Below are positions 8,115 to 25,168 of a DNA stretch of 64,000 bases, one piece after another. The translations under genes and the position numbers were made by a program. The stretch spans positions 1,975,501 to 2,039,500 of the forward strand of contig CP126204.1 in the NCBI GenBank assembly GCA_030272155.1, given 5' to 3'. The DNA is from Tetradesmus obliquus (lineage: Eukaryota; Chlorophyta; Chlorophyceae; Sphaeropleales; Scenedesmaceae). Position 1 is the stretch's first letter. Every line of letters starts with the position of its first letter. The notes beneath the pieces are model-generated. The model was not told the DNA's origin, ran no database searches, and worked only from the letters and a program-made list of their open reading frames with translations.

Positions 8115-11100
8115 TCAAGCTGGAAGGGACAGCTGCTGCACACTGCGGCGGCAGCAGCAGCAGCACACTGCGGCGGCAGCAGCAGCAGCATCTACACCGT
8201 CCGACAAACCTCCACTACCATCATCATCATCAGCAGCAGCATCGCGGCCCTCATGCAGCACATCTTCAATGTGCATCAGCTGCTGCCGCAGGTACTGCAC
8301 CTCCCCTTCCACAATGCTGACTGCTGATGCATCCAGCAGCTGCTGCCACTGCTTGAGCTGCTGCGGGTCAGCCCATGCTGCTGCATCGCCCCAGGCAGAC
8401 GGCTCCTGCAGCAGCAGTAGCATTGTGAGCTTCTCCGACAGGAAGTCCGGCTGCTGCTGCTGCTGCTTCTGATCAATCTGAGCTTGCTGCTGCTGCTGCT
8501 GCGGCGGCGCCTCCTGCTGGTGCTGCTCGTGGCAGGGGTGGTGGTGGTCGTCTGCTGCATGCTGCTGCTGCTGCTGCGGGTCTGCTGGCAGGTAGGGCCG
8601 CATCTGCTCCACAAGCGGCTCAATTACCTGCAGGGACACACAAGCAGGAAAGCAAACAAATCCACTTTTTTCCACAGATGCCGTGGCTTGAGCAACAGAT
8701 GCATCGCATGCATGCGGTGACTTGAAGTGAAAACTTTGATTGGATGCAACCAGTGATGTGTCATCTGCATGCATCCCAGCAAGACCACGGATCAGGGCAT
8801 CAGTTAGCCGCCTGGGTGATGCTGATGCTGCAGCTGTTGCTAGTCAGCGACACCCCAGACACGCCTTCAAGGCGAACAACTGTGATCGAAACCTACACAC
8901 AGACATATACACACGCAGCGCAGCAGCCCACCTGGTGCAGCGGCGTCGCGCGCAGCTCCTGTAGCACCTGCTGCCTCACGGTGTGCGGCACGCAGCGGTC
9001 CTTGGCACACATCTGAGCAGCGTAGCGCACCGCAATGAAGCTGCGCACAGACACGAGCGGGGCCATTGACACCAGGCGGGCCACCACAGCCTCGGGCGCT
9101 GCCAGCTGCCCCGACGCAGCAGCTGCCTGCACGGGCAAGGCATGCAGAAGACATTGTCGTGGTCAGCGCAACACGAGGTCGTGTTGCTTGCATCCAGTGG
9201 CACCAGCTCTGGACCCTTCAGTTTTGGTTGGTTGCCTAGTTCTTGCAATGAAGGTGCGCACGGACACTAGCGGGGCCACTGACACCAGGCGGGCTCCGGC
9301 TCCGGCGCTGCCAGCTGCCCGACGCAGCAGCTGCCTGCACATGCAAGGCATAGTGAATGTTTGCTATTGAGAGTGCAAGGTTGAGTTGATTGCAGCCATT
9401 ACCAGCTCTGAGCATATGTTTCGCCTTGGTTGCAATGAAGCTGCGCACAGATACTAGCGGGGCCATGGACACCAGCCGCACCACGCTGTTGAGTCTTGGA
9501 GTGTCAGGGCCATGTTTGATGGTACCATCCCCATCATTGATTGCAGGCCTACCTCAAATAGCATAGCTTAAGCAAGGCATCACTAGTTGAAAACTTGAAA
9601 CAAATACACCCAAAACTTAAGCCTTGAAGTTCACACACCTGCACCAGCTCAGGCGCAGTGGCCTTGATGAAGTGCTCCGCCTCCCTCCAGTTGCTATCTG
9701 GCCGTATATCTAGCGTGAACAGCACGCCAGTTGCCTTCCACAACACTTGCAGAACTCCTAACAAAACAAGGCCGCAGCTGAGACACCCACAAAAAGCTGC
9801 TGCCACCTGCACCAGCTCAGGCGCAGTGGCCTTGATAAAATGCTCCGCCTCACGCCAGCTGCCATCTCGCCTGATGTCCAGCGGAATCAGCACGCATGTT
9901 GATGTTTGATGCTTGCAGACTCACCACAAATCTTGGACACAACTGTGTCACCAGCTGATCCCCCGACAACCACAGACAACAAACACCGTGTTTGGAACCG
10001 CAGCCACCTACCTGCACCAGCTCAGGCGCGGTGGCCTTGATGAAGTGCTCTGCCTCCCTCCAGCTGCCATCCGGCCGTATATCCAGCGTGAACAGCACGC
10101 TGTCGGGCCGCGTGTTGGCTGACAGCCGCAGGAAGCCGCGCGGCTGCCCAGTGGTGGGGTCGACGCGTGACATAGCCTCATAAAGCATTGGCAGCGGCAC
10201 CCAGTGCGGCGGGTACTTGAAGCGCGCCTGATGAGCAATGAACAGCAATAGCGAGAGCAACGCAAGGCATCAGCAGCTGTGCAGAACAGGGACATCCTGA
10301 GAGGAATATCATTTATCAAAGGGTGGAGTTGATGTATGGCAATGAGCACAATGTGGCTGCCCCATGGTGGGGTCGACGCACGACAGGGTCGACGCGCGAC
10401 ATGGCCTCATATAGCATTGGAAGAGGCACCCAGTGCGGCGGGTACTTGAAGCGCGCCTGATAAGCAAACAAGAGCAAGGGAAGGCATCAGCTGTGCGAAC
10501 ACCCGGGCAGCAACAAGGGATGGAGGGATGAGGGAAGGGCAGAGTAATGAGCATGGTGCTACAATGCACACGCCCGGCAGCCAGCACACAGCAGCAAGGC
10601 AGCTACCATGTGCACACCCTCAGATATCTTCCAACGCGCCCTGCCGACCCCACGGGGCTGAAGTGGCATCCCCTTGACATCAAATATGGCAACGCTACAC
10701 ACAACACACGTCTGCTCATTACGTACCGTGTCTAGGATCAGCACCAGGTCCCGCGCAGCATGGTATCCCCCAACAGGGCTGAAGTGGCCGTCGCCGGTCT
10801 GGCTGAATGCCTTGCGGCTGTAGCTGACCACCAGGTGCTCCTCGCCACTGGCAGCCACAGCAGCTACAGCATGCCTGAACTCCTGCAGGCTGAAGCTGCC
10901 GAAGCGGTGCAGCGAGACGTTGGCGCCGTTGCACTTGGCCAGGCAGGCAGCCTGCGGCGAGAGAAAGGGCAACACACACAACGAATTGGTCTCAGCAAGA
11001 GGCAGCGAGACGTTGGCACCATTGCACTTGGCCAAGCAGGCAGCCTGCAGCGCAAGCAGCAGACAGGGCAGCACACCGTTTGCAGGTGCTGCCCGCAAGA

Positions 11101-11678
11101 GGCAGCTGCTGGCGCCACTTTGGCAGCTGCTAGGTGTAATCGCCCTGCTGCCACAGCCGCTGCAGCACCCTGCGTGTGCAGGGCGCCCTCCCTTGCTGCT
11201 GCTGCTGCTGCTGATGCACCGTGCTACACTGCTCTATTTGCTGCGCGCCTCCATGAGCACCACTCCTTCTTTCGCGACTGTGGCCAGCGGCAGGCAGCAG
11301 TCCAGCAGCTGCTTGAAGCCTGCTCTACACTGCATCGAGTATCTTGCATTCCACGCCATGCTGCGCGCTATGTGAGCACCACGCCTCCTTCCGCAACTGC
11401 GGCCAGCGGGCAGCAGTCCAGCGGTCACACTGCACTGCACTGCACGCTCTAACTGGCATTCCACGCCATCCACATCACGCTGCGCACCTGTGTCAGCACC
11501 ACGCCCTCCTTTGCCACTGTTGCCAGCGGCAGGCAGCAGTCCAGCAGCTGCTCATGGAACCAGCGCCAGCTGCCCTTCCAGGGCCGCTTGGGGTCAATTG
11601 ACAGAGCATTGAGCACCATGGCAATGCTGGCAAGCCCACAAAAGGCGGGCTCATCTTGGGTGCTGCGGGTGGGGCAGG

Positions 11679-24500: not shown

Positions 24501-25168
24501 CTGGCCAGGTGAGTTGCTGCTGTTTGTCTCTTCGCATGTGCGGTGTGGACCAGCTGGCCGTGTTGCTTGGTATGTGACCTACCGGGCGGTGTCCCTACCT
24601 ACCTTGGCGCTAAAACTTGATGTCTTACTGTGTTGCTGTGTTAATGCTGCGCAGGGCGTTGCTGCAGGAGGCAAAGGTGCTTGCGCTAGATGAGGCGACT
24701 GCTAACGTTGACCGGTCAACCGACGCGCTGATTCAGCAGAGCCTGCGGCAGTTCACCAGCGCTGAGGCAGGCAAGGACAGCGGGCGCGTGCTGCTCGTGA
24801 TTGCACACAGGTGAGAGCATAGCGTGTGGCAAGCCGTGATACAATCTTTTGGCGGCATGCGCATGTGCATCATTGCGCTAGTGTGCTCAGGTGATGTACT
24901 TGCTGCATGATGCTGGTAGTACGTGTTTTGCTTGTAGGAATTGCGCCTTTTCGACTTGTTTTCCACTGCTGCTTCACATTGTGCTTGCAGGATCGACACA
25001 ATCCTGGACTGCGACCACCTACTGGTGCTGAGCAACGGCCAGCTGGTGGAACAGGGGCCGCCGAAGGAGCTTGCTGCTCAGACAGGCGCGGCAGGCAGCG
25101 GGCAGCCTGGCATATTTGCGAGCATGGTCGAAGCAGCAAAGGCAGCAGCAGCAGGACACCACCACTAG
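13854..25168 (+). CDS. ABCC/MRP-type full ABC transporter
   Basis: Exporter of conjugates; plant ABCC1/2 of this class load phytochelatin complexes into vacuoles. Twenty-one exons join in phase for 1750 residues: 13854-14084, 14486-14601, 14982-15134, 15501-15789, 15963-16052, 16289-16480, 16843-16921, 17142-17521, 17919-18330, 18585-18794, 19017-19163, 19579-20914, 21193-21391, 21572-21720, 22300-22390, 22668-22859, 23177-23331, 23716-24016, 24157-24353, 24655-24810, 24991-25168. TMD1 is followed by NBD1: Walker [10 protein letters not shown] (about 619), LSGGQK (716), and Walker [11 protein letters not shown] with Asp in place of the catalytic Glu, as is usual for MRP NBD1. A linker of nearly 400 residues rich in Gln, Ala and Ser precedes TMD2 and NBD2: GRTGSGKSS (1526), [17 protein letters not shown] and VIAHR. 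The protein starts at the SRISFSWV lasso, so TMD0 is absent. The substrate is inferred from the PCS neighbour and is not shown by the sequence. Confidence 0.94.
14722..14925 (+). repeat. Two upstream copies of ABCC exon 14982-15134
   Basis: CTGCAG or TTGCAG followed by [23 protein letters not shown] sequence occurs at 14722, about 14853 and 14982 (period about 130). Only the third continues into the membrane segment and ends at a donor. Confidence 0.85.
15215..15420 (+). repeat. Copies of ABCC exon 3 end and exon 4 start
   Basis: A second TLVHHQFL with GTGAGT donor lies at about 15218-15255. A decayed WIGMR-like exon start follows a CGCAG acceptor at about 15375-15415, upstream of the used exon at 15501. 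Confidence 0.75.
16525..16563 (+). repeat. Perfect 19-bp direct repeat in an ABCC intron
   Basis: GTGATGCAACATACATCCG occurs twice back to back. Confidence 0.8.
17673..17730 (+). repeat. Direct repeat in an ABCC intron
   Basis: A 27-bp sequence beginning ACGTGCAATCCTCAAAGC occurs at 17673 and 17704. Confidence 0.8.
18480..18518 (+). repeat. Fragment of ABCC exon 18585-18794 in the preceding intron
   Basis: The AYCSQVP coding stretch with its flanks is repeated about 120 bp upstream of the exon and lacks the beginning of a usable exon. Confidence 0.65.
19205..19295 (+). repeat. Decayed copy of the end of ABCC exon 19017-19163
   Basis: CATCCTGTTTG at 19210, then a GGGCATGATGGCAGGTGG segment, parallels the exon end and its donor with an insertion between them. 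Confidence 0.5.
20995..21066 (+). repeat. Copy of the end of ABCC exon 19579-20914
   Basis: [20 protein letters not shown] plus a GTGAGT donor repeats the exon end [20 protein letters not shown] about 150 bp downstream. Confidence 0.85.
21772..21960 (+). repeat. Two copies of the end of ABCC exon 21572-21720
   Basis: [18 protein letters not shown] with donor recurs ending at 21842 and 21959 (spacing 122 and 117 bp). Both copies keep AG/GTGAGG. Confidence 0.9.
23056..23095 (+). repeat. Fragment of ABCC exon 22668-22859
   Basis: A copy of the [10 protein letters not shown] coding segment (as [10 protein letters not shown]) lies about 270 bp downstream within the intron. Confidence 0.65.
23396..23583 (+). 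repeat. Long inverted repeat carrying a copy of ABCC exon 23716 start
   Basis: Arms 23396-23470 and 23508-23583 are reverse complements with about five mismatches and one single-base gap. The 37-bp loop is a copy of the beginning of the downstream exon ([13 protein letters not shown] region). Another fragment of the same exon lies at about 23595-23632. Confidence 0.9.
24446..24515 (+). repeat. Copy of the end of ABCC exon 24157-24353
   Basis: VRMAEA.D.LSVGQ.QL.CLAR with a GTGAGT donor is duplicated about 155 bp downstream; it alters the signature context to LSVGQLQL. Confidence 0.85.

Follow-up and report, generated by a model that had tools for sequence, protein, structure and literature searches.

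A divergent pair of phytochelatin synthase and TMD0-less ABCC transporter genes in Tetradesmus obliquus

Described relatives and the divergent gene pair

Phytochelatin synthase (PCS) enzymes condense glutathione (GSH) into phytochelatins (PCs) in the cytosol. Here we analyse a 64,000-nucleotide stretch of the green alga Tetradesmus obliquus (the window; contig CP126204.1 of assembly GCA_030272155.1, positions 1,975,501 to 2,039,500 of the forward strand), in which a PCS gene stands head to head with a gene encoding a transporter of the ABCC subfamily. On the transporter side, the solved proteins most relevant to the locus are ABCC4/MRP4 (PDB 8sx7 and 8bjf), which is a full ABCC without TMD0, consistent with its chain length of 1325 residues, the plant AtABCC2 (PDB 9li5 and 9u57) and the yeast Ycf1 (PDB 7m68). 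Two green-algal ABCC proteins, known here from descriptions only, resemble the window ABCC in their family: CrMRP2 (CrABCC10) of Chlamydomonas reinhardtii, which is reported to confer cadmium sequestration and is predicted to be vacuolar, and HLA3 (CrABCC1), a plasma-membrane HCO3- influx transporter to which CrMRP2 is 44.74% similar (PMC9605142). On the enzyme side, the closest described gene is SaPCS of Scenedesmus acutus (GenBank MF278027 as cited), whose published coding sequence (CDS) of 1938 bp is distributed over seven exons, with a second exon of 73 bp, and encodes 645 amino acids with 11 Cys residues in the C-terminal region. The same report describes a transcript retaining intron 4 with premature stops at 1005 and 1077 bp, a PCS isoform of about 34 kDa, and a single PCS gene in the Sphaeropleales, with two very close sequences of one strain being read as alleles (PMC12899622).

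Our analysis confirmed the divergent PCS-ABCC gene pair and showed both genes to be genuine and not chance constructs. Their ATG codons lie at 12943 and 13854, and the two spliced models reproduce both the divergent orientation and the 910 bp between the start codons that an earlier note on this DNA had described. The same note had claimed an intact PCS, with its catalytic Cys, His and Asp in family spacing, and a full ABCC transporter; both claims held, as detailed below. It had further stated that its author knew of no described PCS-ABCC pair in green algae, and among the papers listed in our literature searches, judged by titles and the beginnings of abstracts, there was likewise none on such a pair; words starting with "abc" are absent from the main text of the SaPCS paper, where the adjoining ABCC is hence unmentioned under that name (PMC12899622). 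The features of the locus, where TMD and NBD denote transmembrane and nucleotide-binding domains, are as follows:

8115..12943, minus strand: SaPCS-like PCS gene of seven exons, read from PF05023, the spliced model, the catalytic triad against 2btw and the SaPCS landmarks; exons 5-7 are the approximate part of the model
12943-12580, 12119-12047, 11662-11488, 10951-10727, 10227-10012, 9126-8932 and 8627-8115, minus strand: PCS exons 1 to 7 of the spliced model
12944..13853, no strand: divergent intergenic spacer of 910 bp, a candidate shared promoter, read from base composition, motifs and open reading frames (ORFs)
13854..25168, plus strand: full-size TMD0-less ABCC gene of 21 exons and 1724 amino acids, read from the spliced model, Pfam and PDB comparisons of its frames and the PDB ranking
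14486..14601, plus strand: ABCC exon 2, carrying the helix with Val and Glu at the MRP1 K332 and H335 positions, from the spliced model and alignment
18024..19163, plus strand: ABCC NBD1 in exons 9-11, with Walker A, LSGGQ signature and Walker B (PF00005 at 18192-18437)
23716..25168, plus strand: ABCC NBD2 in exons 18-21 (PF00005 at 23819-24019)

Two of the three minus-strand frames of the PCS gene matched PF05023, with E values of 4.8e-39 and 4.2e-34 and scores of 118.1 and 134.2 bits in those two frames, to be compared with a curated cut-off of 24.9. Splicing at GT-AG sites yielded a CDS of 1761 bp encoding 586 amino acids, whose stop ends at 8115. The triad Cys154, His260 and Asp278 of this product aligns with that of Nostoc Alr0975 (PDB 2btw, E 8e-28), which is 35% identical to the algal PCS; the catalytic Cys is preceded by Asp-Glu in the context STQDEPAFCG, and eight Cys residues follow the catalytic domain. 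The C-terminal family PF09328 (Phytochelatin_C) gave no match in a scan confined to the three unspliced minus-strand frames of the gene, and this domain is described as not recognized in algal PCS sequences (PMC12899622). There is a single PCS locus in the genome, which comprises 104.66 Mb in 17 contigs and was searched for both PCS and ABCC loci: PF05023 matched it four times, always within the window PCS gene (in exons 3, 4 and 5 and in an exon-5 copy within intron 4), and the search, which scores best candidates only, scored all four of these.

The likeness to SaPCS extends to single copy, seven exons, the 73-bp exon 2, Thr as the first full codon of exon 3 and the Asp-Glu ahead of the catalytic Cys. 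Counted from the ATG at 12943, which is consistent with the published SaPCS numbering, the first two in-frame stops of a window transcript retaining intron 4 begin at nucleotides 1003 and 1075 and end at 1005 and 1077. This coincidence of exon 2 and stop positions argues that, to judge from sequence, the window PCS is the published single-copy gene of Scenedesmus acutus/obliquus or a near copy of it. Unlike the 645 residues and 11 C-terminal Cys of SaPCS, our model has 586 residues and eight Cys after the catalytic domain, a shortfall that would reflect either a strain difference or mis-modelled splice sites in exons 5-7. Among the splice combinations listed of the 2086 enumerated, none gives both a 1938-bp CDS and 11 Cys, and exons 5-7 are therefore regarded as approximate.

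Two further features of this enzyme deserve mention. From the start at 12943, about 110 residues including a Gln-rich stretch lie ahead of the conserved core (window 12943-12580), and 46 residues precede the next Met. Besides, the PCS domains of many bacteria (cyanobacteria, myxobacteria and others, loci L035-L100, including Microcoleus, Polyangium, Sorangium and Nannocystis) are 48-61% identical to the algal PCS and in this respect closer to it than Nostoc Alr0975, which raises a question about the origin of the eukaryotic type.

Type of the ABCC transporter

The neighbour of PCS is a complete ABCC gene. It runs from the ATG at 13854 to a stop ending at 25168 in 21 exons spliced at GT-AG sites, giving one open frame of 1724 amino acids, with weakly constrained junctions near exons 7-9, which encode a poorly conserved linker (98 candidate splice-site pairs for exons 8-9). 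PF00664 and PF00005 matched in both halves, which gives the TMD-NBD-TMD-NBD order of a full transporter, and in the PDB comparison the 60 chains listed of 61 at E <= 1e-80 were all ABCC proteins, one of them fused to a potassium channel. Exon 1 begins right before the first core domain, so that the protein has no TMD0. A hidden TMD0 exon upstream of the ATG at 13854 was considered and rejected: the plus-strand frames of the spacer offer a single hydrophobic segment, which stands alone and out of frame with the ATG, and contain no hydrophobic ORF large enough for a TMD0.

The architecture without TMD0 and the ranking of solved ABCC proteins both liken the transporter to ABCC4. The full-length protein scored 832 bits with ABCC4, 722 with AtABCC2, 709 with ABCC2, 692 with MRP1 and 672 with Ycf1 (PDB chains), and the TMD2-NBD2 half alone retained that order (ABCC4 518, AtABCC2 492 and Ycf1 452 bits). 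ABCC4/MRP4, its best PDB match, is 39% identical to the window ABCC over 308 aligned TMD2 residues and differs from it in length (1325 residues as opposed to 1724, the window protein having long Ala/Ser/Gln-rich linkers), the two being likened by ranking and not by a tree. AtABCC2, of the same subfamily, is 35% identical over 266 TMD2 residues and 25% over 374 TMD1 residues; it scores below ABCC4 and carries more than 220 residues ahead of the aligning stretch, an N-terminal part that is absent from the window ABCC. Ycf1, also an ABCC protein, was compared by score only and likewise falls below ABCC4.

The substrate pocket separates the window ABCC from AtABCC2 as well. Among the pocket residues with assigned functional roles, MRP1 K332 belongs to the glutathione pocket; the corresponding position is Lys in AtABCC2 and Val in the window ABCC. 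At the MRP1 H335 position AtABCC2 has Asn, and both the window ABCC and MRP4 have Glu.

The genome offers other candidates for an AtABCC2 counterpart. We located at least ten ABCC loci: on contig C3 at 5.42, 7.23, 7.75, 7.77 and 7.81 Mb, on C11 at 2.80, on C14 at 1.19, on C15 at 1.80, on C16 at 0.64 Mb, and in the window; ten is a lower bound because the searches score best candidates only. When AtABCC2 TMD1 was compared with the genome, the window ABCC contributed one of the 26 matches, with 26.2 bits and in the 18th place. After adding up the bits of each locus, sums of our own that vary with exon lengths, all eight other ABCC loci matching TMD1 stood above the window ABCC, as did four of the seven others matching TMD2, which leaves it fifth of eight loci in the latter case. 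A 63-residue probe from a paralogue ranked ABCB proteins first and was uninformative. Judging by architecture, pocket and these comparisons, the window ABCC does not appear to be of the AtABCC1/2 or Ycf1 type. Its top rank with ABCC4 does not by itself establish it as an ABCC4 orthologue; the ranking alone is weak because the NBD2 piece of another paralogue also places ABCC4 first.

Apart from these comparisons, three of the ABCC loci are clustered on contig C3 (7.747-7.816 Mb; L005, L006 and L007) and one more lies on C15 at 1.80 Mb (L008); the NBD2 signature of these C3 and C15 loci reads WSLGQQQL, as opposed to LSVGQRQL in the window ABCC, in what looks like an expansion.

Significance of the adjacency

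We consider it probable, if by no means assured, that the locus consists of two ordinary intact nuclear genes that have become divergent neighbours by coincidence. PCS would then make PCs in the cytosol, as known for its family; its neighbour would most likely use ATP to move an organic anion out of the cytosol, the outward polarity being presumed; the 910-bp spacer would hold either two promoters or one bidirectional promoter; and the two proteins would be functionally uncoupled. The spacer (12944-13853) has 49% GC and contains one TGCRCNC sequence resembling a metal-responsive element at 13828, near the chance expectation of 0.9 at equal base frequencies, and no match to TATAWA was found in its 910 bp. 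Six-frame Pfam scans for further metal genes nearby, covering 3201-8202 and 25100-30101, gave no family.

The expression data drawn on here concern the S. acutus gene under Cr(VI) and sulfur treatments, not under Cd, As or Zn. By quantitative PCR, Cr(VI) raised SaPCS significantly in the sulfur-sufficient wild type, and increases seen otherwise came mainly with medium renewal or nutrient resupply; Cr(VI) hardly alters PC output in this alga (PMC12899622).

Several observations weigh against a coincidental pairing of PCS with an ABCC4-like exporter. The sole PCS locus detected has one of the roughly ten ABCC loci as its exact head-to-head neighbour. Assuming a genome of 15,000-20,000 genes, the a priori chance of an ABCC as a PCS neighbour (2 x 10 ABCC loci over the gene number) is about 0.1%, which is small for a pre-stated test and unremarkable when the search was open-ended. 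The uncoupling of the two genes is itself argued from a lack of evidence for coupling, and the Cr(VI) rise of SaPCS, seen in one condition (PMC12899622), runs counter to it. As regards the type of transporter, the 41 MRP4 residues compared in the pocket region are only 19.5% identical to the window ABCC; exon 13 of the window ABCC is the top single match of AtABCC2 TMD2 in its own genome, with 55.7 bits; and the paralogous NBD2 piece mentioned above scores 149.8 bits with ABCC4 and 142.2 with AtABCC2.

A first alternative, which we rate as unlikely, would make the pair a PCS-efflux module: the shared spacer would serve as a common control region for PC synthesis and for the TMD0-less ABCC, whose role would be to carry PC-metal or GSH-metal complexes out through the plasma membrane. 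The single PCS with its divergent ABCC at 910 bp would suit such a module, as would the ABCC4-like, TMD0-less architecture, human ABCC4 being a plasma-membrane exporter. A study of Ulva reports in its title that cadmium is extruded to the medium together with GSH (PMC13300706). These points are opposed by the SaPCS transcript, which changes mainly with medium renewal and shows one significant Cr(VI) rise, in the sulfur-sufficient wild type (PMC12899622).

Just as unlikely, in our estimation, is that the window ABCC is a member of the HLA3/CrABCC1 group of Chlamydomonas and acts at the plasma membrane in the transport of bicarbonate or some other anion, in which case it would be unrelated to PCs. 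HLA3 is a plasma-membrane HCO3- transporter of the same ABCC family, and its 44.74% similarity to CrMRP2 (PMC9605142) would favour this assignment; however, the genome has about nine further ABCC loci that are equally eligible as the HLA3 counterpart.

It is tempting to speculate on a selected module of the Scenedesmaceae, where PCS and a TMD0-less pump of ABCC4-like type would share a bidirectional promoter, the pump expelling PC- or GSH-metal complexes from the cell and replacing the vacuolar route of AtABCC1 and Ycf1; we consider this quite improbable. If the pair were indeed a functional module, the algal PC pathway would gain the transporter it lacks and a single point of regulation, both of use for metal bioremediation strains, and efflux instead of vacuolar storage would be indicated. 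As it stands, the locus provides a well-defined candidate transporter, along with the caution that a neighbouring gene alone is poor ground for calling an ABCC a phytochelatin pump.

Should a PCS-exporter module exist at all, efflux is more likely than vacuolar transport. The earlier note had proposed the latter, that is, a shared promoter co-regulating PCS and a vacuolar PC-metal ABCC as the algal counterpart of AtABCC1/2 and Ycf1, an interpretation that we find partly supported: the ABCC subfamily is right, the genes are adjacent and CrMRP2 of Chlamydomonas is linked to cadmium sequestration and predicted to be vacuolar (PMC9605142), but the transporter lacks both TMD0 and the pocket Lys of MRP1 and AtABCC2, has ABCC4 as its best PDB relative and carries the lowest summed AtABCC2 TMD1 score of nine matching loci, and the model as a whole is very doubtful.

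The possibility that a PCS-ABC linkage was inherited from bacteria found no support. We kept 80 bacterial PCS loci of the 332 confirmed, some on contigs too short for full flanks, and ran blastp (E 1e-6) between their ORFs of at least 90 amino acids and the window ABCC; 5 of the 80 had an ABC-exporter-like ORF in their flanks, and the closest lay about 1.7 kb from PCS (L113 and L114).

Exon copies within introns

Both genes are rich in local duplications. In 13 of the 26 introns of PCS and ABCC (window 8115-25168), parts of the flanking exons recur as local copies, of which there are 23 (for instance at 10386-10456, 9639-9727, 9807-9895, 11739-11819, 20987-21061, 21786-21842, 21903-21958 and 24443-24508), and some of them include the adjoining splice site. 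Seven of these copies abut the 5' end of an exon, eight abut a 3' end and eight do neither. Across the 404 codons compared between copies and exons there were 87 synonymous and 54 non-synonymous differences, a synonymous share of 62%, as compared with 31% under neutrality and 47% if the true exon alone were constrained (P 4.5e-4, calculated as though the copies were independent, although they are not). This excess hints that some intron copies may be, or may once have been, coding. The copies contain one in-frame stop against 3.7 expected, a difference that is not significant (P 0.10). A phase bias of mismatches between local repeat copies was present in the bacterial control loci as well (z 8.2), and because of this the bias alone is no proof of constrained intron copies. 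Local repeat pairs numbered 7.0 per 10 kb in the two genes, 4.7 in the rest of the window, 9.5 in 33 ABC loci, some of them overlapping, and 0.65 in the bacterial loci, which are an imperfect control.

The copies are not alike, as two of them in PCS show. The copy of exon 3 differs by 3 synonymous and 9 non-synonymous changes, and its catalytic Cys is replaced by Tyr. The other lies in intron 4:

10386..10456, minus strand: 5' part of PCS exon 5 duplicated within intron 4, complete with an acceptor of its own

It shows 5 differences over 71 bases, all of them synonymous, and is identical in protein across the 23 codons compared (window 10316-10456). Splicing of exon 4 to this copy is predicted to give a PCS of 325 amino acids and 36.0 kDa that consists of the catalytic domain alone and keeps the whole triad, or 31.0 kDa from the next Met, and is one candidate source of the S. 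acutus isoform of about 34 kDa. If intron 4 were simply retained, as it is in the SaPCSa form described for S. acutus, the window sequence would yield 36.6 or 31.6 kDa, and mass therefore cannot separate the two events.

Partial exon copies occur elsewhere in the genome too. Among the ABC genes, L027 holds several copies of LDEATSALDAESEHLV and L030 several of GKPNASDEEVIAAS, and L014 contains two copies of a signature-motif stretch.

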